Source: Hydrogenovibrio halophilus DSM 15072 (GTDB lineage: Bacteria > Pseudomonadota > Gammaproteobacteria > Thiomicrospirales > Thiomicrospiraceae). From it: a stretch of 64,000 bases of DNA. Position 1 is the first letter of the stretch. The number at the start of each line of letters is the position of its first letter. The notes below the pieces were generated by a model that was given only the letters and a program-made list of their open reading frames with translations, was not told the origin of the DNA and did no database searches. The translations under genes were made by a program, and so were the position numbers. The stretch spans positions 1,495,164 through 1,559,163 of the forward strand of contig NZ_KB913033.1 of the NCBI RefSeq assembly GCF_000384235.1, in the 5' to 3' direction. This document shows, in pieces, positions 1,587 through 21,918 of the stretch.

Positions 1587-1647
1587 GACAGGAAGGGTCC
1601 TCGGTTGCTGTGATAAAACCATTAAAACACAACCAGAATGAAAAATA

Positions 1648-1668: not shown

Positions 1669-1683
1669 TGTAATTTTTAATAA

Positions 1684-1701
1684 GCGCTCCAGAATGAGCG
1701 C
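1684..1701 (-). terminator. Terminator-like hairpin after the mini-array
   Basis: A perfect 6-bp stem GCGCTC/GAGCGC encloses a 6-nt loop and is followed on the minus strand by TTATTAAAAATT. The tail is U-rich but interrupted, so termination would be partial. It could separate the guide RNA from the cas7fv transcript. Confidence 0.45.
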
Positions 1702-1705
1702 CCGT

Positions 1706-1725
1706 CCACCTGCATGGTGGTTAAT
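1706..1725 (-). repeat. Degenerate CRISPR repeat (pseudo-repeat 2)
   Basis: The minus-strand sequence ATTAACCACCATGCAGGTGG matches 16 of the first 20 bases of the GCC-type array repeat. Two of the differences (repeat positions 8 and 18) lie opposite each other in the hairpin and change a G-C pair to an A-T pair, so the Cas6f stem CCACC/GGTGG is preserved. The eight bases that form the 5' handle in true repeats are not conserved here, as expected for the last repeat of a guide. Confidence 0.8.
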
Positions 1726-1744
1726 CCATAACCTCAAAAATAAT

Positions 1745-1779
1745 TTTCTAAGCCGATCATTCAAAAATGGTCGGTTAAC
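1745..1779 (-). repeat. Degenerate CRISPR repeat with enlarged hairpin (pseudo-repeat 1)
   Basis: The unit begins GTTAACCG and ends CGGCTTAGAAA, identical to both ends of the array repeats, but the centre is 16 nt instead of 9. The longer centre extends the hairpin to CCGACCATT/AATGATCGG, with eight of nine pairs and a TTTG loop. The 8-nt handle CTTAGAAA is intact. Confidence 0.78.
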
Positions 1780-1791
1780 CGAGGCAACAGG

Positions 1792-1820
1792 AAAATAGCA
1801 AGGTTTCCCCATGTTTGCAA
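1792..1820 (-). promoter_or_regulatory. Predicted promoter of the mini-array RNA
   Basis: On the minus strand TTGCAA (1820-1815) and TATTTT (1797-1792) are separated by 17 bp, so a transcript would start near 1785, a few bases before pseudo-repeat 1. The -35 lies inside the first codons of cas2-3 and the spacer overlaps its ribosome site. Confidence 0.55.
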
Positions 1821-4800: not shown

Positions 4801-4861
4801 TGAAATTGTGTTTGACGAAAGCTTTGGTTGTTTTAGACGACGTGTTGGAGAAGCAGAATGA
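1811..4861 (+). CDS. cas2-3: Cas2-3 fusion, type I-F helicase-nuclease
   Basis: This 1016-residue protein fuses an adaptation subunit to the interference nuclease. Residues 1-65 form the Cas2-like domain typical of I-F (SQC, then TWQTPITEKGL and STAVSCL). The HD nuclease begins with HD at 117-118 (LVHDLGK) and includes a THHG motif near 195. The SF2 helicase has Walker A TAETGTGKT near 386, the DEAD-like LDEID near 540, SSATLS near 570, and motif VI QTAGRVNRHR near 800. Its role is to shred Cascade-marked DNA and to work with Cas1 in spacer capture. The start ATG 1811 follows AAGG and fits the family N terminus. It overlaps cas1 by an ATGA. Confidence 0.96.
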   Translation: MFAIFSSQCRGKSIKRTRKILDAYASRVGQFTWQTPITEKGLQEIYRQLRKSASKSTAVSCLINQGSKGLKLAWTVGKKGVFDQYGRVAIGTKKAKKEVPEWVSILSLAVKSAGLVHDLGKTTRYFQHKLRENQISKDPIRHEWMSLMLMQNIADQVTLEQAYNRLPAVIGKRQEPSWFKKGIQSSDELIEFFVATHHGLLAPIDPGIQFPSASESHIRENSERAQKAHKRLFTADSGLEPVISRFVKTRQRLAERLKNKKVSDLDHYYRALAIIGRVALIYADHKVSAQKPGLAVSEKEFWAKSKGPQIQSLDWHLKEVAFNAANNVYHLSRLSSQLDHLTPIAQSKILKPAPSNTAFSWQNPASHFLENLGQAIEKHTPVLVMNTAETGTGKTLGNVKALCALNQGKGMGCRISIGLNLRSLTLQTGHAISGMTGINESEMAVIIGDDDYADLQKKSDDTFNDEDENPVEVTDDVRGGEGFDLPEWLSFIAKDKKQASLHGAPLLVSTIDYLVASGEPYQQGRHVSAFIRIAGSDLILDEIDGYEPKALIAVCRVIQMASLMGRNVVCSSATLSRPVANTVYAAFKKGVLMRQAMTGQKIDLTVAMIDNRLEPRLLPLKKDAFPDLYENYLKHFLSKIPAPNKKPMLVDMKKSAQGFLDAIDTAVEALHSNQCHEVAGKKLSVGLVRIANVKPAIKVARMLAKNNKNSLVACYHANDFVINRYHKEQVLDEILTRKGKEPNQKLHENTVIKSLLAQTEHDHVRLIVVATPVEEIGRDHDFDWAVIEPSSTSSIIQTAGRVNRHRNVLTEKANIGILRFNYATCVNRSEVFVMPGLEQEGSHPNHDLLEILNWKKLDCISTRMRFDQSHKFSKYDDWSIERTTNPHLSKGVFSDKTPYMTQGAYKAAKLREQNEKVRYRLDENAVWLQWRIVDNKFGKPYFGWQKDAASQPAEVIEKTSNDWLSLSFSQMKDLCAELDVPLEYGLSIELAEYNPTDEIVFDESFGCFRRRVGEAE

Positions 4862-5793
4862 AAAGTCAGCAGAAACCCAAAGAAATCTTGCTCTCAAAAA
4901 GAGCGAACATTTTTTATCTTGAGCATTGCAAGATCATTCAAAAGGATGAAAGGCTTGTCATTCTGGGGGAAACAGGGGCCGAGGTCGAGCACTATTATAA
5001 TTTGCCGGACAGGAATACCATGTTCTTACTGCTTGGGATCGGCACCTCCATTACAAACTCAGCTGCCAGAAGGCTTTCCGAGTCAAATGTGATTTTTGGC
5101 TTCGTTGGTAATGGAGGAAGTCCGGCGTTTACATTTTCCGATTTTGTTTTTATGCCGACTGCAAGTGAATACAGGCCTACAAAATACATGCAGGATTGGG
5201 CAACGATTTTTTTTAACGAAGAGAGGCGCTTAGCCGTGGCCAAAAAGCTGCTTGAAGATCGCTTGTCTCTGGTCGGTCAATATTGGCAGAGTTTTTTGAG
5301 TGACAGTGAGGCCCAACAGCTCAAGCAATATGTAAGCTCAATCTCAGCATCTGAAACAAATGAAAAGCTTTTGCTGACCGAAGCAAAAATTGCCAAAAAT
5401 CTTTATAAAACCATCTCGCAACACCATGGCATGAACGGATTTAGAAGAAAGTCCAGGCTTCCTGAAAATGATTTCGATGAGTTTTCTTTGGTTAACGGCA
5501 TGATTGACCAAGGAAACTACATTGCTTATGGGTTTGCTGCAGCCGCGCTGCACACACTTGGAATCAGTTTCGCTTTTCCGATTCTGCACGGAAAAACAAG
5601 AAGAGGTGGTCTCGTTTTTGATGTGGCAGACCTTGTCAAAGACGCAATGGTATTACCAAAGTCATTTGAGCATGGCATGGCCGGTTCGAGCAACCAAGAA
5701 TTTCGTGAAGATTTGATGAGGTTTATGCACGAAAATCAAGTGATGGACCTGATGATGGATTTTGTGATGGACTCCGCTAAAGTGTTGCACTAA
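4858..5793 (+). CDS. cas1: Cas1 integrase, type I-F
   Basis: This 311-residue protein starts with the I-F signature KRANIFYLEHC. The expected metal-ligand regions are visible: the glutamate in LLLTEAKIAKNLYK, the histidine in ILHGKTRRGGLVFDVADL and the aspartates just after it. With the Cas2 part of Cas2-3 it integrates new spacers at the leader end of the array, which starts 130 bp downstream. The ATGA overlap with cas2-3 indicates one transcript. Length and motifs look intact, so adaptation is likely functional. Confidence 0.96.
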   Translation: MKSQQKPKEILLSKRANIFYLEHCKIIQKDERLVILGETGAEVEHYYNLPDRNTMFLLLGIGTSITNSAARRLSESNVIFGFVGNGGSPAFTFSDFVFMPTASEYRPTKYMQDWATIFFNEERRLAVAKKLLEDRLSLVGQYWQSFLSDSEAQQLKQYVSSISASETNEKLLLTEAKIAKNLYKTISQHHGMNGFRRKSRLPENDFDEFSLVNGMIDQGNYIAYGFAAAALHTLGISFAFPILHGKTRRGGLVFDVADLVKDAMVLPKSFEHGMAGSSNQEFREDLMRFMHENQVMDLMMDFVMDSAKVLH

Positions 5794-5923
5794 CCCTTTT
5801 TATATTGGTTTTTTGAGATCTTTAAAAATCAGCAACTTATGACTCCATGCCTAGAAGATGGTGTTTTGCCATAAAGATATCAAAACTTCTTTTTTATCAA
5901 AGTTTTGTTTAAACTAAGGAACT
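5794..5923 (+). promoter_or_regulatory. CRISPR leader with IHF sites
   Basis: This AT-rich, non-coding stretch lies between cas1 and the first repeat. TATCAAAGTTTTG at 5895-5907 fits the IHF consensus WATCAANNNNTTR exactly, 16 bp before repeat 1. TATCAAAACTTCT at 5878-5890 misses it by one base. IHF bends the leader during type I-F spacer integration. Orientation is supported by the degenerate repeats lying at the far end of the array. Confidence 0.8.
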
Positions 5924-6311
5924 GTTAACCGTCACGCAGGCGGCTTAGAAAAAGGTTATTTTAATGCCGCCTTTATGATAAACGTTAACCGTCACGCAGG
6001 CGGCTTAGAAAGGTATGGCCCTGTTTATCCTCTTTTTTATCTTGTTAACCGTCACGCAGGCGGCTTAGAAATTTTGCGCGCGCGCCCACTCTTGCCCTGC
6101 ATCGTTAACCGTCACGCAGGCGGCTTAGAAAATGCGCAGACGAAACCGCAAACGAAAAAAACCGTTAACCGTCACGCAGGCGGCTTAGAAAACCGGCGGC
6201 GACACCTCCACCGGCGGCGATACGTTAACCGTCACGCAGGCGGCTTAGAAAATGCCGATGATGATCTGTACAGCCTTCATTGTGTTAACCGTCACGCAGG
6301 CGGCTTAGAAA

Positions 6312-6323
6312 ACCAGGCCTGGT
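6312..6323. repeat. ACCAGGCCTGGT palindrome inside CRISPR spacer 7
   Basis: The first 12 bases of spacer 7, which form the seed, are the palindrome that is repeated across this chromosome segment. The rest of the spacer continues TAAAAGTGCCGACGAAATG. Confidence 0.95.
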
Positions 6324-6918
6324 TAAAAGTGCCGACGAAATGGTTAACCGTCACGCAGGCGGCTTAGAAAATGCCGACGATGATCTGAACCGCTTTCAAT
6401 GTGTTAACCGTCACGCAGGCGGCTTAGAAAAATCATAGCCGTTTGGCACCTCGGCAAAAATCGGTTAACCGTCACGCAGGCGGCTTAGAAAACGACAAAC
6501 ACCAGCACCGCCGCAATCGTCGCGTTAACCGTCACGCAGGCGGCTTAGAAAAAATCGTCCAGCCTTGCAAAGCATCACGATGAGTTAACCGCCACGCAGG
6601 CGGCTTAGAAAAAGGCGTTCACCATCCTTTTCAATTGATGATCGTTAACCGCCACGCAGGCGGCTTAGAAAAATCGGAACGAGCGCAAGACATTGACCCC
6701 GCCGTTAACCGCCACGCAGGCGGCTTAGAAAAAAGCGATATGCGAACGGCGATGCAAGAGCTTGTTAACCGCCACGCAGGCGGCTTAGAAAATCTGCACC
6801 AACGCCGCCGAAACTTCAACGGTGTTAACCGCCACGCAGGCGGCTTAGAAAATATACATCTTAGTGCCGTCAGGCTTAAAGAAGTTAACTGTAATGGTCA
6901 AGTTTTTTTGGAAGCGTT

Positions 6919-7773
6919 CTAAGCCGCATTGGCCATTTCCTGCCGCTTCATGTTTGGCGTCAAGTAACCTATGGCGGAATTTAATCTGCGATAGTTGTAA
7001 AATCGAATGTATTGCTCAACAGCCGTCACGACAGATTGGTGGTTGATAAAACTCAGATCGTTTAAACGCTCGGTTTTCAGGTTGCGAAAGAATCGTTCCT
7101 GAACGGCATTATCCCAACAGTTGCCCCGTCGGCTCATGCTGGGGGTAATTTCGTGCCATGCCAAAGCATTGGTAAAGATTGTGGCGCTGTATTGCACGCC
7201 CTGATCTGAGTGAAACATCAGGTTTCTGGTATTAGGCTGTATTCGGGTAATGGCATCCGTCAATGCCTGTTTGGCCAGATGAGCATCTGGCGTTGTCGAC
7301 AGAGCGTGACCGACAACTTCTCTGCTGCCCAGATCCATCACAGTAGCCAGGTAACTCCAGCCTTGATGCGTTCGAATGTAGGTGATGTCACCAACCCAGT
7401 GGGTGTTCACGGTGCCGGGATTAAATTGACGGTCTAAAAGGTTGGCGGTCGTCGGGTGTGCATTGCCGCCGCGGTAGTAATGGGGCTTTTTAGGTGCCTT
7501 GGCAACCAGTCCCTGTTCTTTCATCAACCGACTGATTTTAAAGTGCCCCACCTGCATCCCGTCCAGCGCCAGAGCGATTTTCATGCGTCGGCGACCATAG
7601 GTGCCATGGGTCTGTTCATGAAGCCTGTGCATCGCTTGGATGACCTCTTGATCTGATCGGTTGGCGGGTTTCGTTTGCATCTGGTAATAGTAGGTCGAGA
7701 TCGCCACGTCAAACAGCCTGCACAGCTGGTGAGTGGTCAGTTTTGGGTCTGCCTTTTTCATCTGCCCAATCAC
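6919..7773 (-). CDS. IS3-family transposase OrfB (DDE integrase domain)
   Basis: This 284-residue frame has an HTH_21-type region (TYGRRRMKIAL) near residue 60 and the rve integrase core with catalytic Asp in VGDITYI, Asp in FHSDQGVQY and Glu in AVQERFFRNLK. The frame starts with GTG overlapping the orfA stop (GTGA). It is probably expressed mainly as an OrfAB fusion, because the frame is open upstream to the A-rich slip site at 7812-7818, giving KKGHRLFHSRQ across the junction. It cuts and joins the IS ends. Confidence 0.95.
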   Translation of the reverse strand: MIGQMKKADPKLTTHQLCRLFDVAISTYYYQMQTKPANRSDQEVIQAMHRLHEQTHGTYGRRRMKIALALDGMQVGHFKISRLMKEQGLVAKAPKKPHYYRGGNAHPTTANLLDRQFNPGTVNTHWVGDITYIRTHQGWSYLATVMDLGSREVVGHALSTTPDAHLAKQALTDAITRIQPNTRNLMFHSDQGVQYSATIFTNALAWHEITPSMSRRGNCWDNAVQERFFRNLKTERLNDLSFINHQSVVTAVEQYIRFYNYRRLNSAIGYLTPNMKRQEMANAA

Positions 7774-10820: not shown

Positions 10821-13703
10821 ATGTCTGGTCGAATATTTTTTCTCATTTTTGTGTTTCTTGTCCCCGGGCTGGTTAAGGCCAGTGTGGGTCAACTGACGTT
10901 GGTGACTGGGTCGGTATCGGTTGAACGAGCGCAGGACACGCGAGTCGCGGAAACGGGCATGTCACTGCAAGAGCAGGATTTTGTGGTGACAAAATCAGGC
11001 GGCCGAGCTCAGATTCGGTTTAAAGACGACACAGTGATTACGTTGAACGGCCAGACCCGCTTTGGCATTGAATCGTTTCTGTACGAGGAAGAGGGGCGTG
11101 AAGACGATGCGAAATTCAATGTTGCGAAAGGGGCTTTCAAGGCGATTACCGGTAAAATCGGCGAGCGGTCGCCGGATCGTTTTAAGGTAAACACCCGCAC
11201 TGCCACCATTGGGATTCGCGGTACCATCTTTACCGCAAAAATTCGGCCCGAGCGTGAAACCATCGCCACGTTGGATGGCCAAATCATTGTCACAGAGACC
11301 CAAACCGGAGGCATTGTAGAAATTCCATCCGGACAGTATGTAGAAGTCATGCCCGGTCAGCCGCCACAGCCGCCTCAGCCGCTTGATGATGCGGTGCTGG
11401 ATGACATCAATTCAGAAGATCCACCTCCGGCAGGCGATGATGAGACCGCTGGTGATCAAAATAATGAGACTGACTCGACAGAGTCTAATACTGTGCCTGA
11501 AGACAATGCAGTTGGTGGTAATGAGCCTGTTGGTGAGCCTAGTGACACTATGGCAGAATCCAGCGATCTACCTTCTCCAGCAACAGCACAAAATCTGCAA
11601 GAAAACGCATTACCAGTGGAAGCCGTGGAGCCAGAATCGGTAAATGATGCTCAGCGATCAAGTGCAAATGAATTAAAACAGCCTGAGCCTGAACCAGAGC
11701 CACAGCCTGAACCAGAGCCACAGCCTGAACCAGAGCCACAGCCTGAACCAGAACCACAGCCTGAACCTCCCTCCGAACCCGCAGAAGGTTACAACTTTAA
11801 CCAGGGTGAGTGGCAGTTTAACCAAGACCAGTTTGAATACGAATGGTTAGCGTATGACCAACCGGCGGCACCTACCGACCCGGCGGACGGGTACAACTTT
11901 AACCAAGGTGAGTGGCAGTTTAACCAAGACCAGTTTGAGTACGAATGGGTTGCTTACGACCAACCTGAAATGCCATCAGAACCCGCTGAGGGCTACACAG
12001 CCAGTCAAGGGGCATGGGTGTTTAACGAAACGCAATGGGTTTATGAATGGGAGGCCATTGCCAATGCATTGCGTGAGCAAACCATGCGAGGGGTGTACGT
12101 GAAAACCTTTGAGCCGATAATAGACGATGGGACGCGGACGGTGAACTGGAACAAGGCATATTTGCTTTCTGATAATACTTTAAAAGACGGGCTTGATGGT
12201 ACGGGCACAGAATTAGTGCACAGTCAGGATTGTTTTGGGTGTCAGGAGCCAATTGAAAATCCACAAACACTGGCGCGTGAGTGGGTATTTTCTTTGCCGG
12301 AAGCCTCGAATAGCTACACCGGTTTCAGTGACTTTACTCAGTCAAAAACCTTTTGGGACTATAACGGTGAACAAGTCGCCACCGCCGATGTCGATGTGTA
12401 TGTAGATTCAATGCAGGAATTTTTTATAACCTATTACGAGTCAGGCGACATCCACTATGCCGAAGCCTTTGGCGTGCCCACAGAGATCGGTCAGAAGCCT
12501 GCTTCTGGCATTGTGCGTTATCAGTCGCCTGTGAGTGATGAACAAGTGACTGTGAATTTTGATCGTGATCAGCTGATGAGTTTTTCGATGGATCAAGCGT
12601 CAGGCATGCAAGAGGTGAGCATTCGTTATGGTTCAATAGAAGAAGGCCTTGCACTGGTGGTCGGAGAGGCTGAGTATGATTACAGCCCTGAGTTTTCAAA
12701 TACTAATGCGTCCACATCTATGGTCGAGGGTGTCAACCATGGCCTGTACGGGCAGGAAGCTCAGGGTTTGGTGATTGTGACGGCATCAGAAATGGATTAT
12801 TCCCTGATGGGTTCTGCGCCAGAACGCAATCTGTTTTTAGGGTTTAAGGCGACGGATGCTCCGCCAGTCGGCACCGATGACAACAGTTCAGTGCTGACAC
12901 TCTCGGGGCTGGCAAACAGCCGTCTTGGGGGTGATGACTATGGTGAAATCACGATCAATATGACCAAATCCAATGGGCGAGTTGAAAACACAGAGGTGGC
13001 TATTTCGGACACGATTAATGAACCGATGGACTATCAGTTTCATGATGAGGGGGACTATGCAAACGGTGCCTATATTCATGATGATCGGTTTGTTACGACA
13101 TCAAAATCCAACTCGATAGACCCTGCTACTTATGATTTTGATGGCTGGATTGCTGCTTTGGATGATGAAAGTATTTTAGATAACGAGTATGTTTCTTGGG
13201 GCTACTGGGGAGCGTCTCAAGCGACGACGACAAATGGAAGTCGTGACCCTGTCCCCCCAAGCCCATGGGTGGCGGGCAAGCAGGTGAGCGAGGCGCTTGA
13301 TCATTTAAATAGCCTGTCTGACACGGTTGCATATAGCTATACGGGCACACTGATGGGCATGACCACGGATGCGTCCAATGCGGTGTATCCGATTGAGAAT
13401 GGGGTGGTGACTATGGATTTCACTTTTGGCGGCGCTTCCGATTCTCTGGATGCAGCCAGCATTGAATTTGATTCCAATGGTCAGTCATGGGCATTGAATT
13501 TGGGGTCGGGGACCGGACAAGTGTCACTGGACACGGATGCACGTTTTGGTGGTGACCTTGAAGGCACCGTTGGCGGTCAGGCCATTGACAGCGGCGCGTT
13601 TGAGGGGTTGTTTTATGGCGATGAAGCCCAGGCCATTGGGGGTCGCTTTGAGGCCATTGCCGATGAGTTAGGGGCGATGGGCGTTTTCGAAGGCAAGCGC
13701 TAA
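10821..13703 (+). CDS. Secreted FecR-domain repeat protein with TbpB-like C terminus
   Basis: A signal peptide (residues 1-21) is followed by a FecR domain (about 25-165: FKDDTVITLNGQTRFGIE, TATIGIRGTIFTAKI). Next come an acidic Asp/Glu/Pro linker, a PEPEPQ tract near 285-318, three 34-residue repeats (EGYNFNQGEWQFNQDQFEYEW) near 320-412, and a large beta-rich C terminus ending in GLFYGDEAQAIGGRFEA...GVFEGKR. That ending resembles the TbpB-type beta-barrel found in Slam (type XI) cargo. No lipobox is seen. GTG 10818 is possible, but ATG 10821 sits 9 bases from AAGGAT. The next gene, 12 bp away, encodes a Slam-like barrel, so export to the cell surface is a reasonable inference. Confidence 0.72.
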   Translation: MSGRIFFLIFVFLVPGLVKASVGQLTLVTGSVSVERAQDTRVAETGMSLQEQDFVVTKSGGRAQIRFKDDTVITLNGQTRFGIESFLYEEEGREDDAKFNVAKGAFKAITGKIGERSPDRFKVNTRTATIGIRGTIFTAKIRPERETIATLDGQIIVTETQTGGIVEIPSGQYVEVMPGQPPQPPQPLDDAVLDDINSEDPPPAGDDETAGDQNNETDSTESNTVPEDNAVGGNEPVGEPSDTMAESSDLPSPATAQNLQENALPVEAVEPESVNDAQRSSANELKQPEPEPEPQPEPEPQPEPEPQPEPEPQPEPPSEPAEGYNFNQGEWQFNQDQFEYEWLAYDQPAAPTDPADGYNFNQGEWQFNQDQFEYEWVAYDQPEMPSEPAEGYTASQGAWVFNETQWVYEWEAIANALREQTMRGVYVKTFEPIIDDGTRTVNWNKAYLLSDNTLKDGLDGTGTELVHSQDCFGCQEPIENPQTLAREWVFSLPEASNSYTGFSDFTQSKTFWDYNGEQVATADVDVYVDSMQEFFITYYESGDIHYAEAFGVPTEIGQKPASGIVRYQSPVSDEQVTVNFDRDQLMSFSMDQASGMQEVSIRYGSIEEGLALVVGEAEYDYSPEFSNTNASTSMVEGVNHGLYGQEAQGLVIVTASEMDYSLMGSAPERNLFLGFKATDAPPVGTDDNSSVLTLSGLANSRLGGDDYGEITINMTKSNGRVENTEVAISDTINEPMDYQFHDEGDYANGAYIHDDRFVTTSKSNSIDPATYDFDGWIAALDDESILDNEYVSWGYWGASQATTTNGSRDPVPPSPWVAGKQVSEALDHLNSLSDTVAYSYTGTLMGMTTDASNAVYPIENGVVTMDFTFGGASDSLDAASIEFDSNGQSWALNLGSGTGQVSLDTDARFGGDLEGTVGGQAIDSGAFEGLFYGDEAQAIGGRFEAIADELGAMGVFEGKR
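11688..11759 (+). repeat. 18-bp tandem repeat encoding PEPEPQ
   Basis: Four near-identical 18-bp units (CCTGAACCAGAGCCACAG) lie inside the FecR-domain gene. Slippage here would change protein length by six residues without a frameshift. Confidence 0.9.
11781..12058 (+). repeat. Three 102-bp repeats encoding a 34-residue aromatic motif
   Basis: Units begin at 11781, 11883 and 11985. The first two are nearly identical; the third has diverged (GYTASQGAWVFNETQWVYEWEA). Each is rich in Trp, Tyr, Phe, Asn and Gln. Confidence 0.9.
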
Positions 13704-13715
13704 CAGGAGCGGGTC

Positions 13716-15152
13716 ATGATCAAATACAAACCAAACCATGCACCAGGCCTGGTGAAAGCGCCATTTCATTGGGGCGGGTCTCTGTTGTGCGCCGCTTTGT
13801 CTGTCACGACCGTGCAGGCGCAAACGCCCAATGCGGATACTCAGGCCGCGACCTATTCGCAACAGCACACCGAACCGGTCGCGCTTAAGACATTGTTTCA
13901 AAATGCCAAAGCCCTGTACGATCAAAAGGCCTTTGAGCAGGCTTATCCGTTGTTTGATCAACTGGTGCAAAAGGCCCCGCAAAGCAGAACCTTTAACTTT
14001 TATCTGGGGCGTTCGGCCTTTGAAACACAGCGTTTTGATGCGGCGATGGCGGCGTTTGATCGGGTATTGATGCTTGAGCCCAACCATCTGCGGACGCGTT
14101 TGGAGATGGCCCGAGTCTATTTTGCACTCAAACAATTTGATATGGCGGCCATGGAAGTGCAGGCGGTTTTGGCCTCATCAGAGGATTTGCCGCCAGCGGT
14201 CAAACAGAATGCTGAAAGGTTTGCTCAACGCATTCAAGCCGAAATGAATTACAGTCCTCATTCGCACCAATTCACGTTGGTGCTGGGAGGCGAATACGAC
14301 AGCAACGTCAATAACGATTTGGGCGGGTCCGGCAGCTTTGAATTACCAGGCCTGGACGGAGTGACACTGGATAAGCGTGACGAGGTTGAGGATTATGCGC
14401 TGAGCCAGACCCTGTTGTATGAGCATGATTACGATCTAGGCGGTCGTGGCGGCTGGCACTGGCAAACAACGGCCCTGGGGTTGAATAAAAACCACCGCGA
14501 AGCACCGGAAAACGATTTGCAGTATGTGTCGTTGGAAACCGGGCCAGGATTGCGGCAGGCCAGGGGACGCTGGTCGTTTCCGTTGACGGTTGACCGTGTG
14601 TATCTGGATGGAGAAACCTATGTTTCCAATCTGTCTTTGGGAGTGGAGTACGAACACTCGCTGGAATCAAAAGTCCTGTTGACCGCTGGCTACACGGGGC
14701 GCATCAGTGAGTACGAATCGGATAACGAGGCTCGCAACGCACGCTCGCATATTGTTGATCTGTCAGCAAAGAAATTCTGGGGCGATGAAACACCGTGGGC
14801 TTTAGGGGTGGAAGCCAGAGGCGAATCACGCACTCAGAGAGAAACGCATCCGACCGATCCGGCCTCAATGAAGGAATATACGTTGCGCGCGTCGCTGTCA
14901 AAAGTGATAGATGACCACTGGCGAGTCGACAGTGGCCTGATGCGCCGCTGGAGCGATTATGATTATGAGAGCGCTTTGTTTGAAAACCAGCGTTCGGACC
15001 GGATCAACCGTTTCAGTCTGGGGGTGAGTTATAAGGTCAATGCGTCATCACTGTTGTCACTGACCGCCTCGCGTGCGATTCACGATTCCAATCAGGGCAT
15101 TTATCATTATGATAAAGACCGTGCGGCCCTGCGTTACATCCTGCAGTTCTAG
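13716..15152 (+). CDS. TPR plus outer-membrane beta-barrel protein (Slam-like)
   Basis: A signal-like N terminus precedes TPR repeats at about residues 50-175 (ALYDQKAFEQAYPLFDQLV, AAMAAFDRVLMLEPNHLRTRLEMARVYFAL). The remainder, from VLGGEYDSNVNND onward, is alternating beta-strand sequence ending in RYILQF, a typical barrel terminus. N-terminal TPR plus a DUF560-like barrel is the architecture of Slam translocons, which flip cargo such as the preceding gene product to the surface. It forms an operon with the FecR-domain gene (12 bp) and the cyclase (10 bp). The start contains a PGLVK motif encoded by the iterated palindrome. Confidence 0.7.
   Translation: MIKYKPNHAPGLVKAPFHWGGSLLCAALSVTTVQAQTPNADTQAATYSQQHTEPVALKTLFQNAKALYDQKAFEQAYPLFDQLVQKAPQSRTFNFYLGRSAFETQRFDAAMAAFDRVLMLEPNHLRTRLEMARVYFALKQFDMAAMEVQAVLASSEDLPPAVKQNAERFAQRIQAEMNYSPHSHQFTLVLGGEYDSNVNNDLGGSGSFELPGLDGVTLDKRDEVEDYALSQTLLYEHDYDLGGRGGWHWQTTALGLNKNHREAPENDLQYVSLETGPGLRQARGRWSFPLTVDRVYLDGETYVSNLSLGVEYEHSLESKVLLTAGYTGRISEYESDNEARNARSHIVDLSAKKFWGDETPWALGVEARGESRTQRETHPTDPASMKEYTLRASLSKVIDDHWRVDSGLMRRWSDYDYESALFENQRSDRINRFSLGVSYKVNASSLLSLTASRAIHDSNQGIYHYDKDRAALRYILQF
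13742..13753. repeat. ACCAGGCCTGGT palindrome
   Basis: A copy within the 5' end of the beta-barrel gene, read in frame as PGLV and followed by Lys. Confidence 0.9.
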
Positions 15153-15161
15153 AGCGCATCT

Positions 15162-17321
15162 GTGTCACGTATTTTCCTACAGATCATCCTGTTGATTGTT
15201 TTGCTTCTCACCAGTGGCGTCGTTTTATTGACCCAGCAGGACTGGTATCAGCCGTTTGAATACAAGCTCAATGACCAGATGTTGGTGTTTCGTGGTGAGC
15301 AGCCGGTCGATCCCAATATTGTCATTGTCGATATCGATGAAAAAAGCCTGAGCGAACTGGGGCAATGGCCCTGGCCACGTGATCAGGTGGCCCAGCTGCT
15401 GGATGCCCTGACCCAGATGGGCGCAGGCATGATCGGGCTGGATGTGGTCTTTGCCGAACCGGACAACAGTTCGCCCAAACGGGTGTTTGAACGACTGGGC
15501 CGGGATGCAGACGATCTGCCCGATTTTGATCGGATGCTGGCCGAGACCATTGCCCGTACCCCGACGATTACCGGTTATGTGTTTATTCAAAACCCGGATG
15601 GGATAAATCCCGGGCGCTTGCCGACCAGTCGGGCCACGATTCTGGAACGCAACAAGCCTGAGCAAAGTTACCTGTTTCAACCTTATCGGGCCGTTCTCAA
15701 TTTACCCGTGATCCAAGACAATGCCTACGCCAGCGGTTATTTCAACTCGGTGCCGGACGCCGATGGCGTGGTACGCAGTGTGCCGTTGGTGATGCAATAT
15801 GAGCAGATGCTGTTTCCGGCGTTGAGCCTGGAGATGATGCGGGTCATGACCGAAAGCCGCCGCATTGAAGTCAACTATGAAAACAATGGTGTCAGCCATG
15901 TTTCATTGGGTGGTTTGGCGATTCCCACCGATGCCAATGGCCAGATGCTGATCAACTTTCGTGGACCGGCGTTTTCTTACCCATACATTTCGGCCGCAGA
16001 TATTTTAAACGGCGACGTTGCAGAGGGGACACTGGCCGGAAAAATTGTGTTGCTGGGCACATCTGCATCAGGTCTGATGGATTTGCGGGCGACGCCGTTT
16101 GACAGTGTTTATCCGGGCGTTGAAGTGCATGCCACCGCGATTGACAACATGCTTAATCAGGATTTTCTGGCTCAACCGATGTGGACATTGGGCGCGGATG
16201 TGTTGACCTTGCTGGTCGGGTTGGTGTTGATTGGGCTTGCGTTGATGTTCACCGGCTCGGTGGTCAGTTTTGCCGCGGCTTTTACGTTGATTGTCGGGTT
16301 GATGGTCGGGCATTATTATTTGCTGATCACGCAAGGACTGATCTTGAATACCGTGGTGCCGTGGGTGAGTTTTGTGATGCTGTTCGGATTGGGCACGGTG
16401 CTCAATTACTTTTTTGAGAGTCGGCAAAAAGCACGGATTCGAAAACGGTTTGCGCAGAAAGTCTCGTCTGCGGTGGTCGATGAGCTGATCAATCACGCCG
16501 ACGATGTGTCGCTGGAAGGAAAAGAGCAGGAAGTGACCCTCTTTTTCAGCGACATTCGGGGCTTTACCACTTTGTCTGAAAAAATGGGCTCGGCACGTGC
16601 GTTAATTGACTTGCTGAACCGGTACATGACACCGATGGTGGACATTATCACAAAGCATCAAGGCACAGTGGACAAGTTCATTGGCGATGCCATCATGGCT
16701 TATTGGAATGCGCCGGTGGAGATTGATCAGCATGCCGATGAAGCACTGACCGCTTCGGTCGAGCAGATTCTGGCGCTTGAAGATTTGAACCAGACGCTTG
16801 CTCGGGACGACTTGCCTCGGATTGACATTGGTATTGGGTTGAACACCGGCGTGGCGGTGGTGGGTGAAATGGGGTCTGTGGGTCGTTCGGATTATACCTG
16901 TATTGGCGATCCGGTGAATCTGGCGTCCCGGGCCGAAGGTTTGTGCAAACCCTACAGCGCCAAAATTGTTTTGACCGAATTCACGGTATCGGCTCTGGCG
17001 CATCCTGATCGTTTTCAGATGCGTTTTCTGGACAAGGTTCGGGTCAAAGGCAAAAGCCAACCGGTATCGATTTATGAATGTTTGGGCTTTGCTCAAAATG
17101 ACCAGGCCTGGTATACAATGAGTACAGAAGAAAACAAACTGTTTGACCAGGCGCAAACGGACTACCATCAGGGACGCTTTTCACAAGCGCTAGAGGCGTT
17201 TCGACAGTTACAGACACGCTGGCCACAGCCTTTGTATGACATGTATCAATCCCGGTGTGAACATTATGTCGCGCATCCACCCGAGTCGTTTGATGGGGTC
17301 TTTACGCTTGAAAGCAAATAA
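15162..17321 (+). CDS. CHASE2-domain class III adenylate/guanylate cyclase
   Basis: This 719-residue membrane protein has an N-terminal helix, a periplasmic CHASE2 sensor (about 35-325: IVIVDIDEKSLSELGQWPWPRD), three transmembrane helices (about 335-415) and a class III cyclase domain (about 450-625). Metal aspartates are in FFSDIRGFTT and IGDAIMAYW; VNLASR supplies the transition-state Asn and Arg. A C-terminal helical tail follows. The start is GTG. CHASE2 cyclases make cAMP or cGMP in response to an extracytoplasmic signal; the adjacent FecR/Slam-like pair may deliver or sense that signal. The next gene carries a cyclic-nucleotide phosphodiesterase domain. Nucleotide preference cannot be fixed by eye. 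Confidence 0.9.
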   Translation: MSRIFLQIILLIVLLLTSGVVLLTQQDWYQPFEYKLNDQMLVFRGEQPVDPNIVIVDIDEKSLSELGQWPWPRDQVAQLLDALTQMGAGMIGLDVVFAEPDNSSPKRVFERLGRDADDLPDFDRMLAETIARTPTITGYVFIQNPDGINPGRLPTSRATILERNKPEQSYLFQPYRAVLNLPVIQDNAYASGYFNSVPDADGVVRSVPLVMQYEQMLFPALSLEMMRVMTESRRIEVNYENNGVSHVSLGGLAIPTDANGQMLINFRGPAFSYPYISAADILNGDVAEGTLAGKIVLLGTSASGLMDLRATPFDSVYPGVEVHATAIDNMLNQDFLAQPMWTLGADVLTLLVGLVLIGLALMFTGSVVSFAAAFTLIVGLMVGHYYLLITQGLILNTVVPWVSFVMLFGLGTVLNYFFESRQKARIRKRFAQKVSSAVVDELINHADDVSLEGKEQEVTLFFSDIRGFTTLSEKMGSARALIDLLNRYMTPMVDIITKHQGTVDKFIGDAIMAYWNAPVEIDQHADEALTASVEQILALEDLNQTLARDDLPRIDIGIGLNTGVAVVGEMGSVGRSDYTCIGDPVNLASRAEGLCKPYSAKIVLTEFTVSALAHPDRFQMRFLDKVRVKGKSQPVSIYECLGFAQNDQAWYTMSTEENKLFDQAQTDYHQGRFSQALEAFRQLQTRWPQPLYDMYQSRCEHYVAHPPESFDGVFTLESK
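17101..17112. repeat. ACCAGGCCTGGT palindrome
   Basis: A copy inside the cyclase gene, read in frame as DQAWY near the end of the catalytic domain. Confidence 0.9.
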
Positions 17322-17339
17322 TCAGCAGGAGAAACGCGC

Positions 17340-19763
17340 ATGAGTCGGATTCGATTTTTGGGTGCCCATGGCGGACGCGCGCAATCAGCGAAAACCACTT
17401 GCTTACAGGTGACGCCCACGACCCTGATTGATGCAGGGCACATTCTGGGCGGCCTGACCGAAGACGAGGCACTGGCGATTGAGCGCGTGTTTCTGACCCA
17501 TGCGCATCTGGACCATATTCTGGATATCGCTTTTTACATTGATCATTTTTTTGCTAGGCGTCAAACCCCTTTAAAGATTTATGGGTTGCCTGAAACCTTG
17601 CAGGCGCTCAAAGATCATTTGTTCAATGAAGCCATTTGGCCCGATTTCACCCTGATTGCACTGCCCGGTCAGGCCCACCGTGCGATTGAACTGATTGAAC
17701 TGACCCCTGACTTGCCGATTGGAATTGATCAGGGCATGACATTGACGCCGATTCTAAGCCACCATACGGTGGCCTGCTGTGGTTATTTGATTGAGAATGA
17801 CCAAGGAGGGGTGGCGTTTGGTGGCGATGGCTGGAAAAACCCCGAACTCTGGGAAAGGGTGAATGCCAATGCCAACATCAAATCGGTGGTCATGGACGTG
17901 TCTTTTCCAGATCGGTTGCGTTTTGTGGCAGAACAAAGCCGTCACTTGACGCCGACACTTCTGGCCGAAGAAATGCAGGCGTTGACCCGTTCCGATGTGG
18001 CCGTATACGCCTGGCACATCAAGCCGGCGTTTTCCGATGAAATCTTCCAAGAATGGATTGGACTGGGTCTGTCCCTCTCACAGATTTTGACCGAAGGCGA
18101 TGAACTGGATTTGGCGACAGGCGAAAAGACGTCGTCGCTCTCCAGTGTTGATGCCAGTTCAGACGATCACATGGATCGGGTCGAACGCCTCAATCAGATC
18201 GGTGTGGCCTTGTCGGCAGAAAAAGATCTGGATGTGTTGCTGGAAAAAATTGTGACCGAAGCCAAAAGCCTGACCGAGGCCGATGGGGGGACATTGTATT
18301 TGCTGAAAGAGGACGCATTGCACTTTACGGTCGCGCAAACCGATTCCCTGGGCATTCGGATGGGTGGCACCAGCGAACCCATCAGTTGGCCCCCTTTGCC
18401 TCTGACTCTGGATGACGGTTCGCCCAACAAAAAAATGGTGGCGGCCACCTGCGCTCTGGAAGACCGTGTGGTCAATATCGAAGACGTGTATCAGGCGAAA
18501 GGTTTTTCGTTTGAAGGCGCAAAAAAATTCGACGATGCCATGAATTACCGCTCGCAATCGATGCTGGTGATTCCGCTTCGAAATTATGAGGAGCGCGTCA
18601 TCGGTGTACTGCAATTGCTGAATCGGCGCGACGCGACAGGGCAAACCGTGGCGTTTGGTCAGGAAGATGAACAGATCACTCTGTCCCTGGCTTCTCAGGC
18701 GGCTGTGGCCTTGACCAACGCCCGTTTGATTGACGACTTGGAGAATTTGCTGGAGTCGTTTTTGAACAGCATCATTTACACCATGGGACGTAAGTCGGCT
18801 TATACCGCCGGCCATATCAATCGCATGGTGGCGCTCAGTGAAATGATGGCGGCGGCGGTGCATGAAGACCAAACGTTTTTCCCCGAGAAGGCGTATTCCC
18901 CAGAGGAATCCCAGGCGATTCGCATTGCTGCCTTGATGCACGATATCGGCAAGCTGGCCACACCTGAAACTGTGATGGACAAGGCCACCAAACTGGACGG
19001 GCATTTTGATCGCATTGAACTGGTGGCGCAACGGGCGCAAACCATCCGTGCCGAACTGAAAAATGCCCATTTGGCTCAGAAGCTGGCAAGGGTTGCAGGA
19101 GAGTCAGACGCTGTTGAAAACCTGTTGGATAAAGAAGGTTTTGAGGCGGCGCTGGCTCGGTTGGATGAAGGGTTGGCACTGGTGCAAAAAAGCAATGTGG
19201 GTGGCGAATTTTTGCCCACAGAACAGGCGCAAGCCATTCAGCGCCTGGCCGATGAACCTTTTCCTGTTCGTGAGGGGCCGACAACGCTTCTGACCCAGGA
19301 AGAAGCGGACTACCTGAAAGTGCAAAAAGGCACACTGACCGAAGAAGAACGCCAGATCATTATGGAACATGCGCAGATTGGTCTCGACGTGCTGGAACAG
19401 TTGCCTTTCCCGGAAAAATACAAAGACATCCCCCATGTCGCCGGTGCGCATCATGAAAAACTCAATGGCCAGGGCTATCCGCTGGGCTTGAAAGGCGATG
19501 AGATTTCATTTGATGCACGTATTCTGGCGGTCGCCGATATATTTGAAGCGCTGACGGCATTTGATCGGCCTTACAAAAAAGCCAACCCGTTGTCCATGGC
19601 AATGAAAATCATGAGTTTTATGGTCAAAGATGGCGAGCTGGACCCCTCACTGGTGCGTTTCTTTTATGAGTCCGGGTTGTATAAAGAATACGCCGAACGT
19701 TATTTGCCAAAAGAGTCCATTGATGAGGTCACCATGGATTTCAGTGACTGGCCGCAAAGCTGA
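17340..19763 (+). CDS. Class II cyclic-nucleotide PDE / GAF / HD-GYP fusion
   Basis: Residues 1-255 are a metallo-beta-lactamase-fold class II phosphodiesterase (THAHLDH near 53-59, LSHHTVACCGYLIE, FGGDGW). A GAF domain follows at about 280-460. The HD-GYP c-di-GMP phosphodiesterase (about 475-795) has MHDIGK near 532 and HHEKLNGQGYP near 705; the gap between them is about 100 residues longer than usual and holds a charged helical insert. AGGAG precedes the ATG, 18 bp after the cyclase stop. It probably degrades the neighbour's cyclic nucleotide and c-di-GMP, joining two second-messenger pathways in one chain. Confidence 0.88.
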   Translation: MSRIRFLGAHGGRAQSAKTTCLQVTPTTLIDAGHILGGLTEDEALAIERVFLTHAHLDHILDIAFYIDHFFARRQTPLKIYGLPETLQALKDHLFNEAIWPDFTLIALPGQAHRAIELIELTPDLPIGIDQGMTLTPILSHHTVACCGYLIENDQGGVAFGGDGWKNPELWERVNANANIKSVVMDVSFPDRLRFVAEQSRHLTPTLLAEEMQALTRSDVAVYAWHIKPAFSDEIFQEWIGLGLSLSQILTEGDELDLATGEKTSSLSSVDASSDDHMDRVERLNQIGVALSAEKDLDVLLEKIVTEAKSLTEADGGTLYLLKEDALHFTVAQTDSLGIRMGGTSEPISWPPLPLTLDDGSPNKKMVAATCALEDRVVNIEDVYQAKGFSFEGAKKFDDAMNYRSQSMLVIPLRNYEERVIGVLQLLNRRDATGQTVAFGQEDEQITLSLASQAAVALTNARLIDDLENLLESFLNSIIYTMGRKSAYTAGHINRMVALSEMMAAAVHEDQTFFPEKAYSPEESQAIRIAALMHDIGKLATPETVMDKATKLDGHFDRIELVAQRAQTIRAELKNAHLAQKLARVAGESDAVENLLDKEGFEAALARLDEGLALVQKSNVGGEFLPTEQAQAIQRLADEPFPVREGPTTLLTQEEADYLKVQKGTLTEEERQIIMEHAQIGLDVLEQLPFPEKYKDIPHVAGAHHEKLNGQGYPLGLKGDEISFDARILAVADIFEALTAFDRPYKKANPLSMAMKIMSFMVKDGELDPSLVRFFYESGLYKEYAERYLPKESIDEVTMDFSDWPQS

Positions 19764-20622: not shown

Positions 20623-21918
20623 TTAGCGGGCTGGCGTTGGGTCGTCTTTGCTGGGTGTTGGCGCGATCACGGTTTGGTTCCGACCTTTGTCTTTGGCCTG
20701 ATAGGCTGCGTTGTCGGCGTGTTTGAGCAGCTCGTCAAGCTTGTGTCCGTGTGGCCCCAGGATGCTGATGCCGATGCTCAGGGTCAAGGCATCAATGCCA
20801 TGTGCCTGCCAGTCTGTTTCGGCAAAGCGCTGGTGAAGGATTTCGGCACGTTTTTCTGCGGCACTTTCTGACAGCCCGTTCAGCAGAATCACAAATTCTT
20901 CGCCGCCCCAGCGGTAGATGCAGTCATTTTGATTCAGACCTTTTGCCAGTAACTGAGCGCCTTGCTTGAGAACATCGTCGCCGGTTTGGTGCCCATGCAG
21001 ATCATTGATGCGTTTGAAATTGTCAAAATCCACCACCAGTAGGCAGGCGCCGGTTTGGTTGAATTTGGCGGCCTGGAGTTGCGCCTGAACCTGGCGCATG
21101 CCTTCACGTCGGTTGGCCACGCCGGTGAGAATGTCGTAGTGCGCCAGTTGTTCCAGCTGGGCCTGCATGGTTTTGTGGTCGGTGATGTCATGCACCATGC
21201 CGACCACACGCGTTGGCCGGCCGTTGTCGTCGCGAGAGGAGACTTTGCCCCGGTCATGCACCCACAGATAGTGGCCGTTGCGGTTGCGCAGGCGATACTG
21301 GGCTTCGTATCGGCTGCGATGGCCTTTTAAATGATTGTCGAGCACGCTCCAGACATAGTCGAGATCCTCTGGGTGGACATTGCGAACCCAGGTGTCTACG
21401 TGCGGTGCCATCTCGTCCGGGCCGTAACCCAGCATTTTTTTCAATTGCGGGCTGAAAAACACATAGTCTGTGTCCAGCTCCCATTCCCAAATGCCGTCTG
21501 ATGCTTCATTGATGGCAAACCAGACACTGTCTTCCCGTGTGTGCAGAGACTGCTCATAGGCCATGCGTCTGGTGATGTCGCGCGCGACCGACAGGAAATA
21601 GGTCTGGTCGTTCTCGGTCAGCACGGTGGTCACCACTTCGACTGCGGTTTCGTCGCCGTTTTTGTGTTGATGGCGACCCACGAAGGTGTAGCCGTCCGGG
21701 CTGTTGTGGATCACCTGGGCAATGTCGTCCCATTGTGGCAGACCGGCCATGTCTTTTTGCAGGCTCAAGACCGAGTGATTGATGATTTCGTCTTTTTGAT
21801 AGCCCAGTGATGCGTAACCGGCCTGGTTGCACCACAAAATGCGAGAGGTGTCAGGGTCAATCACATACACACTGTCTTGAAAGTGTTCGATGATTTGATG
21901 GATTGACGGTAGAGGCAT
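20623..21918 (-). CDS. PAS-PAS-GGDEF diguanylate cyclase
   Basis: Two PAS domains (about 5-120 and 130-250, each ending in a PAC-type segment such as FLSVARDITRR and VVGMVHDITDHK) lead into a GGDEF domain (about 265-420) with an active-site GGEEF. Five residues before it, where the inhibitory RxxD site usually lies, the sequence is NQND, so product feedback through the I-site is probably absent. There is no membrane segment; it is a soluble sensor making c-di-GMP. No convincing ribosome site stands before the ATG. Confidence 0.92.
   Translation of the reverse strand: MPLPSIHQIIEHFQDSVYVIDPDTSRILWCNQAGYASLGYQKDEIINHSVLSLQKDMAGLPQWDDIAQVIHNSPDGYTFVGRHQHKNGDETAVEVVTTVLTENDQTYFLSVARDITRRMAYEQSLHTREDSVWFAINEASDGIWEWELDTDYVFFSPQLKKMLGYGPDEMAPHVDTWVRNVHPEDLDYVWSVLDNHLKGHRSRYEAQYRLRNRNGHYLWVHDRGKVSSRDDNGRPTRVVGMVHDITDHKTMQAQLEQLAHYDILTGVANRREGMRQVQAQLQAAKFNQTGACLLVVDFDNFKRINDLHGHQTGDDVLKQGAQLLAKGLNQNDCIYRWGGEEFVILLNGLSESAAEKRAEILHQRFAETDWQAHGIDALTLSIGISILGPHGHKLDELLKHADNAAYQAKDKGRNQTVIAPTPSKDDPTPAR

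Follow-up and report, generated by a model that had tools for sequence, protein, structure and literature searches.

In the window, a 64,000-nucleotide stretch of the genome of Hydrogenovibrio halophilus DSM 15072, a bacterium of the sulfur-oxidizing type, we observed four consecutive genes encoding a FecR protein, a TPR protein with an outer-membrane barrel, a CHASE2 class III cyclase and a fusion of metallo-β-lactamase (MBL), GAF and HD-GYP domains (Table 1). The junctions, read directly in the sequence, leave gaps of 12, 9 and 18 bp, in agreement with the open reading frames and with an earlier sequence-only reading that had called the four genes one operon. Spacing and a conserved neighbourhood speak for a single operon, but a scan for consensus promoters and terminators performed no better than shuffled sequence (7 vs 7.9; 12 vs 10.6), so the assignment draws on spacing and neighbourhood alone.

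Table 1. Genes, domains and repeats of the four-gene unit, in window coordinates
Feature	Position	Strand	Basis
Gene 1, FecR protein, 960 aa: signal peptide, FecR domain (residues ~55–155), acidic/Pro-rich repeat linker, terminal barrel (~815–960)	10821–13703 (ATG; GTG at 10818 also possible)	+	ORF list, Pfam
Repeat linker: 18-bp unit ×4.6 (11686–11767), 102-bp unit ×2.1 (11799–12010)	11686–12010	+	
Predicted TbpB/NHBA/fHbp-like terminal barrel, residues 815–960	13263–13703	+	Fold model
Gene 2, TPR/outer-membrane barrel protein, 478 aa	13716–15152	+	ORF list, Pfam, fold model
Gene 3, CHASE2 class III cyclase, 719 aa	15162–17321	+	ORF list, Pfam
Gene 4, MBL/GAF/HD-GYP fusion	17340–19763	+	ORF list, Pfam
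Class II cAMP-phosphodiesterase-like MBL domain (HxHxDH)	17340–18116	+	Pfam, alignment
GAF domain, cyclic-nucleotide-binding type by profile match	18159–18719	+	Profile match
HD-GYP domain, insertion between HD and GYP parts (by eye)	18720–19760	+	Pfam, alignment

The FecR domain of the first protein scores above its Pfam cut-off (6.1e-14), and the linker repeats are real. At the C terminus, the TbpB_B_D model falls below its cut-off of 26, with 23.4 bits over the full length (9e-5) and 25.1 bits for the C-terminal part. The fold model of this tail is confident (pLDDT block means 88–97), and its best solved neighbor is the C-terminal domain of NHBA (Z 16.1, rmsd 2.4, 137 aligned); fHbp gives a Z of 13.7, but OmpX also reaches 13.2. 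Among the 50 Foldseek matches listed for the tail, 49 are titled TbpB, LbpB, fHbp, NHBA or hemophilin and one "surface lipoprotein" (best E 6e-5). The model thus predicts a C-terminal eight-stranded barrel of the TbpB/fHbp type, as had been proposed for the end of this protein. By eye, the signal peptide region holds no cysteine that could form a lipobox. LapA, a large adhesin, is exported by type I secretion, and the FecR domains of the unit resemble its retention module: a profile of 49 unit relatives matches NF033682 (NCBIfam) over 70 columns at 96.7%, a likeness seen at the profile level, with the window's own protein reaching merely E 0.028.

In the second protein, several TPR models lie above their cut-offs, TPR_Slam remains under its own (22.1 bits, 2.2e-4; cut-off 35.2) and SlipAM (PF04575) has no match at E ≤ 1. 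The fold model (pLDDT 82.6) places seven helices in the TPR part (residues 53–177), followed by 14 strands, by our own count, up to residue 477. It therefore predicts the order seen in Slam, an N-terminal TPR part and a C-terminal outer-membrane barrel; the Slam barrel likewise has 14 strands. SlipAM matches do appear in relatives at the same position (9/17 at E ≤ 1; best 7.8e-10, 39.2 bits, cut-off 22) and, at E ≤ 0.01, in 19 of 39 barrels of the unit (of 46, 4 lay at contig edges and 3 had been counted before; best 1.6e-14). A 17-row profile of the barrel family matched five SlipAM proteins at 99.95% over 398 columns; since L224 of these five is encoded next to FecR, and is hence part of the group under test, the comparison was repeated without L224 and L227. 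Against the three strongest (strict) Slams alone, the profile reached 99.4% in full and 97.3% for the barrel part (288 columns), and shuffles reached at most 0.3%. The barrels of the window lineage alone (7 rows) gave 97.6% in full but merely 3.8% (4–11%) for the barrel without the TPR, which counts against our main reading. By profile comparison, the barrel family appears to be related to SlipAM, and the gene 2 protein is probably a distant relative of Slam (SlipAM, DUF560), not filed as a member. The structure predictions suggested earlier as a check on the Slam-like barrel and the TbpB-like tail have thus returned both.

SlipAM had no match in the H. halophilus genome, but the control genomes were equally silent, so no absence is shown; in the search of the class it matched in 23 of 229 genomes, with the controls again silent. 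Searching solved structures with the barrel profile gave, among the matches listed (60 of 121), hits in the TPR part only, none of them named Slam. The absence of a Slam entry among the 50 Foldseek and 50 VIA matches listed is uninformative either way. What these lists do contain is BcsC as the first Foldseek match and PelBC at rank 7, with the best Z-scores going to the channels CymA (22.4) and OmpG (21.6), and EpsL and BBP2_2 models weakly match the last strands of the barrel. Such neighbors would fit a plain channel or polysaccharide porin grouped with PgaA, BcsC and PelB, in a unit that regulates a secreted polysaccharide. We consider this very improbable: the barrel-part profile, so close to the strict Slams, stays below 3% for Escherichia coli OmpG, PgaA and BcsC, though it reaches 70% for FadL over 82 columns, and the domains identified in the unit and its nearest window neighbors include no polysaccharide synthase.

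The third protein matches CHASE2 (2.6e-69) and Guanylate_cyc (2.3e-21), as expected from the initial annotation. Residues D464, K505, D509, T579, N586 and R590 are invariant in 11/11 unit cyclases; we take these to be the two metal-binding aspartates, the substrate-binding lysine and threonine, and the asparagine and arginine of the adenylate cyclase set, and the residue set of a class III adenylate cyclase therefore appears complete. It is the sole PF00211 cyclase found in the genome, alongside six cNMP-binding domains in five frames, a point in favor of our main reading. In a tree of 85 cyclases built by a quick method (L177/L178 and L201/L202 being near-duplicates), the window clade lies beside Nitrincola and two Campylobacterota rows, a clade of G006, G007, G012, G021, G027 and G049 lies elsewhere among Campylobacterota rows, with long branches leading to S. 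meliloti and Paracoccus. From this tree, transfer is likely, though not proven.

The fourth protein carries PDEase_II (1.2e-11), GAF (2.2e-15) and HD_5 (2e-35) matches in a single chain, consistent with the proposed fusion. Its MBL residues H54, H56, D58, H59, H142, D163 and H226 are invariant in 12/12 proteins, and the nearest solved chain is 3′,5′-cyclic-nucleotide phosphodiesterase 1 (1e-12, compared with 2.9e-7 for ribonuclease Z); by motif and nearest family, the domain is a putative class II cAMP phosphodiesterase. The HD-GYP domain, with HD, HHE and GYP motifs and their metal ligands (H492, H534, D535, K538, H677, H704, H705, G712-Y713-P714 and D733, likewise invariant in 12/12), is a predicted c-di-GMP phosphodiesterase. 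Between them, the GAF domain has PDE5/2/10/6 and an adenylate cyclase as its nearest solved relatives, and 20 of its 21 matches at E ≤ 0.01 among solved sequences come from cyclic-nucleotide phosphodiesterases or an adenylate cyclase. Its NKFDE-like motif reads NR in place of NK in the window, and the strict form, NK..FxxxDE, occurs in 19/37 GAF domains and in 5/12 of those in the unit, the latter count weighing against our main reading.

The sequence-only reading held that the fusion erases both nucleotides. The intact motif sets are consistent with both activities, which could also be those of two glued independent enzymes, the MBL domain erasing cAMP and the HD-GYP domain c-di-GMP separately, with the GAF domain a linker or a sensor of something else and the unit a simple on/off cAMP switch. 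The NR variant and the scarcity of the strict motif would suit that arrangement, as would two genomes (G010 and G061) in which MBL and GAF-HD-GYP are encoded by separate divergent genes. Yet these separate genes remain neighbors, suggesting a shared task, and the GAF profile matches almost exclusively cyclic-nucleotide GAFs among solved chains. We therefore regard independent erasure as improbable; the GAF domain suggests coupling, in which cAMP would act on the HD-GYP domain.

Genomes of other genera and phyla share this conserved gene set, in line with the search for gene order proposed earlier, and none of the results named there as refuting has arisen; the idea that the set is confined to H. 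halophilus was rejected. FecR, barrel and CHASE2 cyclase genes share one contig in 11 of the 62 genomes of the order (60 of which were searched for FecR, cyclase and PDE), and in a twelfth (G058) the three are spread over separate small contigs. Of these 12 genomes, 8 have the fused PDE beside the cyclase; the PDE lies away from the cyclase in G055, G054, G059, G023 and others, which counts against our main reading, and G006, G007 and G012 lack it while retaining cyclase, FecR and barrel. Beyond these relatives, the unit is present in many Campylobacterota. A search with the cyclase only, of which the best 80 of 560 loci form a sample near the query (many on short contigs; L141 and L159 duplicate G008 and G012), found FecR in 52, a barrel in 46, both in 44 and the fusion in addition in 22, with the parts together in contigs of the Sulfurospirillum, Sulfurimonas and Arcobacter types. 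Loci of Nitrincola and of Desulfobacterota type have the unit without the fusion within the stretch examined.

FecR and barrel form the constant pair of the unit. In 44 cases a FecR gene lies no more than 200 bp from a barrel gene, at a median distance of 9 bp (a barrel between two FecR genes was counted twice, in L159 and L201, and one barrel, in L178, is cut by a contig end). The tail pattern occurs in 17 of these 44 partners and in 0 of 986 other frames, and 11 of the 44 are shorter than 300 aa, with no tail found. TbpB_B_D matches are present in 21 of 49 FecR neighbors not selected by tail (55 found, of which 3 lay at contig edges and 3 had been counted before); a further set of 24 tails had been picked for likeness to the window's own, so 24/24 is not an unbiased count. 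In a search that started from SlipAM, a FecR gene stands beside the barrel in 11 of 20 regions fetched (from 19 of 23 matching genomes; G194, G209, G276 and G284 were left out, and L282 and L292 are one genus), and 8 of the 11 have no CHASE2 within the stretch examined. Here the tail pattern is found in 0/17 FecR proteins, though some ends look similar by eye; a tail is thus no general feature of these regions. The TbpB-like tail is optional in FecR–barrel pairs.

Such a unit is not the exception that it had been supposed to be: it recurs widely, and a cluster of CHASE2 adenylate cyclase, cAMP phosphodiesterase, FecR outer-membrane protein and TPR protein, already known in Campylobacterota, was described in 2022 (PMC9239204). 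Its four parts are of the same kinds as those of the window unit, where by ORFs and Pfam all of them are adjacent. The window unit differs in what the accessible text of that source does not mention, namely a relation to Slam, a TbpB-like tail and a PDE-HD-GYP fusion; the term GAF has 0 occurrences there. Within the open-licence literature, the Slam relation, the TbpB-like tail, a cyclic-nucleotide GAF beside HD-GYP and the FecR–LapA likeness were not found, and no link of Slam, FecR and cyclase was found in print.

Type 11 secretion (Slam/DUF560, with TbpB, fHbp and hemophilin-type cargo) resembles the unit in setting a TPR-barrel beside a protein that ends in a TbpB-like barrel (PMC12282271, PMC8406197, as far as these sources were available). 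The unit differs in that its window barrel lacks a SlipAM match, the partner has an N-terminal FecR domain and a cyclase adjoins; FecR, cyclase and CHASE2 have 0 occurrences in the main text of either paper. The accessible parts of these sources also report soluble cargo besides lipoproteins, and the survey in PMC12282271 gives verified cargo for cluster 1 alone of ten DUF560 clusters. The barrel could be a true type 11 secretor and the FecR protein its adhesin or ligand-binding cargo, with cyclase and PDE merely tuning export or biofilm and no sensing through the cargo. The predicted fold of the tail, the TbpB_B_D and SlipAM counts among neighbors and the FecR–SlipAM pairs outside CHASE2 regions all favor this. 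Set against it are the missing lipobox, the silent SlipAM model in the window's own barrel, the 11/44 short, tail-less partners and a Burkholderia and Pseudomonas operon, described in the accessible part of PMC5192318, that pairs a FecR/LysM protein with a CHASE2 histidine kinase. That operon shares FecR beside a CHASE2 sensor with the window, whereas its output is a histidine kinase, LysM is present in most and no barrel gene is described. On balance we find secretion as the primary function unlikely. Of the exporter-and-cargo pairing first proposed, the Slam-like barrel and the TbpB-like tail have stood, but a barrel devoted solely to exporting such tails has not, since so many partners are short and lack one.

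The FecR–barrel pair reads better as a receptor, by analogy with Sinorhizobium meliloti, where CyaK needs the outer-membrane barrel receptor NsrA to answer a protein signal (accessible parts of PMC7529298, PMC13001267 and PMC10463352). The S. meliloti gene touching cyaK encodes, in one chain, FecR (66–160), TPR (378–587) and a weakly barrel-like end (weak Pfam match); judging by position, length and the barrel range in the available text of PMC7529298, this protein is probably NsrA. The NsrA-CyaK/CyaD1/D2-Clr system thus resembles the window in having FecR, TPR and barrel upstream of a CHASE2 adenylate cyclase, divided between two genes in the window and joined in one in S. meliloti, and serves as a working precedent for the unit. 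The likeness has limits: the NsrA barrel shows no profile similarity to the window barrel family (0.3%), only its TPR being weakly similar; BLASTP between the window's own FecR protein and the NsrA-like one gives no match at E ≤ 1; and the stretch fetched around S. meliloti cyaK contains no fused PDE gene. In the sources as available, smc02177, which encodes a FecR domain, is dispensable for plant-signal perception in S. meliloti, which also counts against our main reading.

We propose, with a probability of about 0.6, that the four genes form a trans-envelope signalling unit in which a split NsrA-like receptor drives cAMP production and is coupled to c-di-GMP. The TPR-barrel would sit in the outer membrane and partner the FecR protein, whose FecR domain would stay periplasmic; in long FecR proteins, the TbpB-like tail would be displayed at the barrel or passed through it to the surface. 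A surface change (ligand, contact or failed export) would pass through the FecR domain to CHASE2 in the periplasm and so set cAMP synthesis. The fusion would close the loop, its MBL domain hydrolyzing cAMP, its GAF domain reading cAMP and its HD-GYP domain lowering c-di-GMP, so that one surface event would set both messengers. The topology, the FecR–CHASE2 contact, cAMP binding by the GAF domain, the direction of HD-GYP control and the signal are what we infer here, beyond the domains, intact catalytic motifs, conserved neighborhood and the barrel–SlipAM and tail–TbpB/NHBA/fHbp relations seen by sequence or fold. A bolder version, which we advance only tentatively, makes the Slam-related barrel a signalling gate: the FecR protein would be threaded tail first and held by a LapA-retention-like FecR plug in the periplasm, CHASE2 would read the state of the TbpB-like head via the plug, and cAMP would bind the GAF domain and switch c-di-GMP breakdown, with the MBL domain limiting the pulse.

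To our knowledge, little is established about what CHASE2 sensors respond to or how they work. The unit ties the Slam protein-export family to signalling and recurs across several bacterial groups; it offers the FecR domain as a candidate partner of CHASE2 and suggests that, in free-living bacteria, Slam-related barrels may serve as receptors or for surface display. The fusion, with a cyclic-nucleotide-type GAF between cAMP-PDE-like and HD-GYP domains, would make cAMP-to-c-di-GMP coupling directly measurable in one purified protein. Should the signalling gate prove true, some DUF560 proteins would act as receptors that use LapA-like retention, and a single polypeptide would link cAMP to c-di-GMP.

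The four genes form a real, conserved and partly known unit. They were initially read as adjacent, and the open frames and junctions in the window DNA confirm this, with spacings of 12, 9 and 18 bp. The genome of the window is a single contig of 2.36 Mb, and we infer its host to be a gammaproteobacterium of the Thiomicrospira/Hydrogenovibrio type. A search for the same gene order showed conservation, with FecR, barrel and cyclase genes on one contig in 11 of the 62 genomes of the order (some with two FecR–barrel pairs) and on separate small contigs in one more, G058; three of the searches in the order covered 60 genomes. The suggestion that the unit is unusual is not supported, as PMC9239204 already describes the four-part cluster in Campylobacterota and proposes a single pathway for it.

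Coordinates of the four-gene unit, neighboring features and related loci
Feature	Location	Positions	Strand	Description
Type I-F locus	window	573-6900		type I-F CRISPR-Cas with repeats
Cas8f-like	window	573-1622	-	type I-F CRISPR-Cas
Cas3f	window	1811-4861	+	type I-F CRISPR-Cas
Cas1f	window	4858-5793	+	type I-F CRISPR-Cas
IS3-type transposase	window	6919-7773		frame, by eye
NERD-domain protein	window	8465-9463
Gene 1	window	10821-13703	+	FecR protein, open frame
Gene 2	window	13716-15152	+	TPR/barrel, open frame
Gene 3	window	15162-17321	+	CHASE2 cyclase, open frame
Gene 4	window	17340-19763	+	MBL/GAF/HD-GYP, open frame
Diguanylate cyclase	window	20623-21918	opposite	PAS-PAS-GGDEF
Counterpart in G008	L121	14573-15865
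Ensifer sp. PDNC004 plasmid	L262	765-10863		FecR, TPR, cyclase and MBL genes

In the type I-F CRISPR–Cas locus of the window, Cas3 precedes Cas1 and Cas8f lies on the opposite strand, an order that is unusual to our knowledge. The array after Cas1f has 28-bp repeats every ~60 bp, and the transposase frame follows it immediately. The nearby NERD-domain protein (Pfam, 1.6e-17) gave no PADLOC match at E ≤ 1e-5.

The gene 1 product carries a FecR domain (Pfam, 6.1e-14), then acidic, proline-rich and repeat segments, and a C-terminal TbpB_B_D match slightly below the cut-off; by eye, its signal peptide region has no lipobox. Of 49 FecR neighbors in relatives, picked without regard to the tail, 21 had a TbpB_B_D match at E ≤ 0.01, the best at 9.3e-17. 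Modeling residues 415-960 from 24 sequences gave a poor result as a whole (pLDDT 56.3, pTM 0.42), but the last 146 residues reach block means of 88-97 and by our count contain eight long strands. Of the 50 Foldseek matches listed for this tail, 49 are titled TbpB, LbpB, fHbp, NHBA or hemophilin (best E 6e-5), and the other is titled 'surface lipoprotein'. Aligned with VIA-align, the tail gives Z 16.1 with NHBA (rmsd 2.4, 137 aligned) and 13.7 with fHbp; as the unrelated OmpX reaches 13.2, NHBA stands out and most other matches score on a par with a generic small barrel. The predicted structure thus agrees with the TbpB-like end first proposed from the sequence.

The AlphaFold2 model of the gene 2 product (pLDDT 82.6) has seven helices in a TPR part resembling SycD/PcrH-type TPRs and, by our count, 14 strands. 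In structure it comes closest to channels: CymA (Z 22.4, rmsd 3.6, 276 aligned) and OmpG (Z 21.6, rmsd 3.4, 263 aligned). The sequence-only reading likened this protein to Slam; the predicted TPR and barrel and a profile relation of the family uphold the resemblance, but SlipAM does not match the protein itself at E ≤ 1. At that threshold TPR_Slam matches 17/17 unit barrels of the family and SlipAM 9/17, and among unit barrels at other loci SlipAM matches 19/39 at E ≤ 0.01 (best 1.6e-14). Compared by profile with five SlipAM proteins, unit barrels score 99.95% over 398 columns and 99.4% for the barrel part alone. Because one reference, L224, adjoins a FecR gene, we repeated the comparison against just the three strongest SlipAM proteins and obtained 99.4% for the full length and 97.3% for the barrel part (288 columns). 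The seven barrels of the window's lineage alone score 97.6% over the full length and 3.8% for the barrel part (11.4% with the two strongest SlipAM proteins), so the Slam link of the barrel itself runs via other unit barrels. Scored one at a time with the 17-row barrel profile, the three strongest SlipAM proteins give 40%, 92% and 14%, and the other two references, L224 and L227, give 99% and 97%. OmpG, PgaA and BcsC stay below 3%, FadL reaches 70%, though for an alignment of 82 columns, and shuffling the columns 20 times gives at most 0.3%. We class the gene 2 product as distantly related to Slam rather than as a Slam itself.

In the 44 cases where a FecR gene and a barrel gene are no more than 200 bp apart, the median gap is 9 bp, with the barrel first in 32 and second, as in the window, in 12. 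The tail, by pattern or profile, occurs in 14 of the 18 FecR partners of at least 450 aa and in none of the 11 (of 44) shorter than 300 aa. Starting instead from SlipAM, we found FecR beside the barrel in 11 of 20 gammaproteobacterial regions. These pairs and the short partners indicate that FecR plus a Slam-related barrel is a module in its own right, with tail and cyclase optional. A CHASE2 gene lies in the stretch examined in 3 of the 11 regions; the pairs in the other eight may serve other outputs.

Pfam places a CHASE2 domain in gene 3 together with a class III catalytic domain, whose catalytic residue set is unchanged in 11/11 unit cyclases. Gene 3 is the sole PF00211 match in the genome, and six cNMP-binding domains in five frames could receive cAMP. 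Gene 4 encodes MBL, GAF and HD-GYP domains in a single chain (Pfam), with the HxHxDH and HD/GYP motifs unchanged in 12/12 unit proteins. Among solved structures, the MBL profile best matches 3',5'-cyclic-nucleotide phosphodiesterase 1 (1e-12), with ribonuclease Z behind (2.9e-7). At E ≤ 0.01, the GAF profile matches 21 solved sequences: 20 belong to cyclic-nucleotide phosphodiesterases or to an adenylate cyclase, and one is named metal-dependent phosphohydrolase. The NKFDE motif is relaxed (NR) in the window and strict in 5/12 unit proteins and 19/37 others, making nucleotide binding by this GAF domain likely. G010 and G061 carry separate MBL and GAF-HD-GYP counterparts, encoded by divergent genes that sit side by side; this arrangement points to the fusion having united two partners. 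Near the unit lies a diguanylate cyclase gene, and G008, the closest relative in the genome set, has a frame in the same place that resembles it in length and first residues as well as in position; a likely c-di-GMP maker thus sits close to the HD-GYP eraser.

The fused phosphodiesterase adjoins the cyclase in 8 of the 12 genomes with unit parts, lies elsewhere in G055 and was not found in G006, G007 or G012; it also occurs without a cyclase unit beside it (G054, G059, G023 and others). The fourth gene is therefore a frequent, non-obligate partner. Scanning named genomes with the cyclase, we found 560 relatives and kept the best 80 loci (within at most 10 kb, many on short contigs), which contained FecR in 52, a barrel in 46, both in 44, the fusion in 31 and all three in 22. 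Nitrincola and Desulfobacterota-type loci showed no fusion within this stretch. Campylobacterota supply 60 of the 72 locus cyclases in the tree, where the clade of the window stands apart from a second one of the same family, both among Campylobacterota.

A precedent lies on pSymB of Sinorhizobium meliloti, where the gene touching cyaK encodes 1190 aa with FecR and TPR regions and an end weakly matching an outer-membrane barrel model (0.0067, below cut-off). This protein, probably NsrA, looks like the products of genes 1 and 2 joined in a single chain, although its barrel shows no detectable relation to that of gene 2. The main text of two T11SS surveys (PMC12282271, PMC8406197) mentions neither FecR, cyclase nor CHASE2. 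On the Ensifer plasmid, genes for FecR, a short TPR protein, a CHASE2-type cyclase and an MBL protein adjoin an NHLP set for bacteriocin export and a gene for a cNMP-binding protein, which suggests that a cAMP module of this kind is linked to another exporter.

We favor, at roughly 60%, the reading of the unit as a trans-envelope receptor. LapA is held in an outer-membrane channel by its retention module, and a profile of FecR domains from 49 unit relatives matches six such modules at 96.7% over 70 columns (20 shuffles, at most 0.6%), so that the two domains look related. On this likeness, a threaded topology, with a FecR plug inside and the TbpB-like head outside, becomes a concrete hypothesis open to testing. 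cAMP would rise or fall in response, the MBL domain would limit it, and the GAF domain may relay cAMP to c-di-GMP via HD-GYP. We regard this full threaded and coupled version as rather doubtful. The stricter Slam comparison altered neither estimate, because neither reading needs the window's own barrel to be a Slam. The unit is a variant of the known FecR–CHASE2 cyclase kind, and the new element is its connection with the Slam family and with c-di-GMP.
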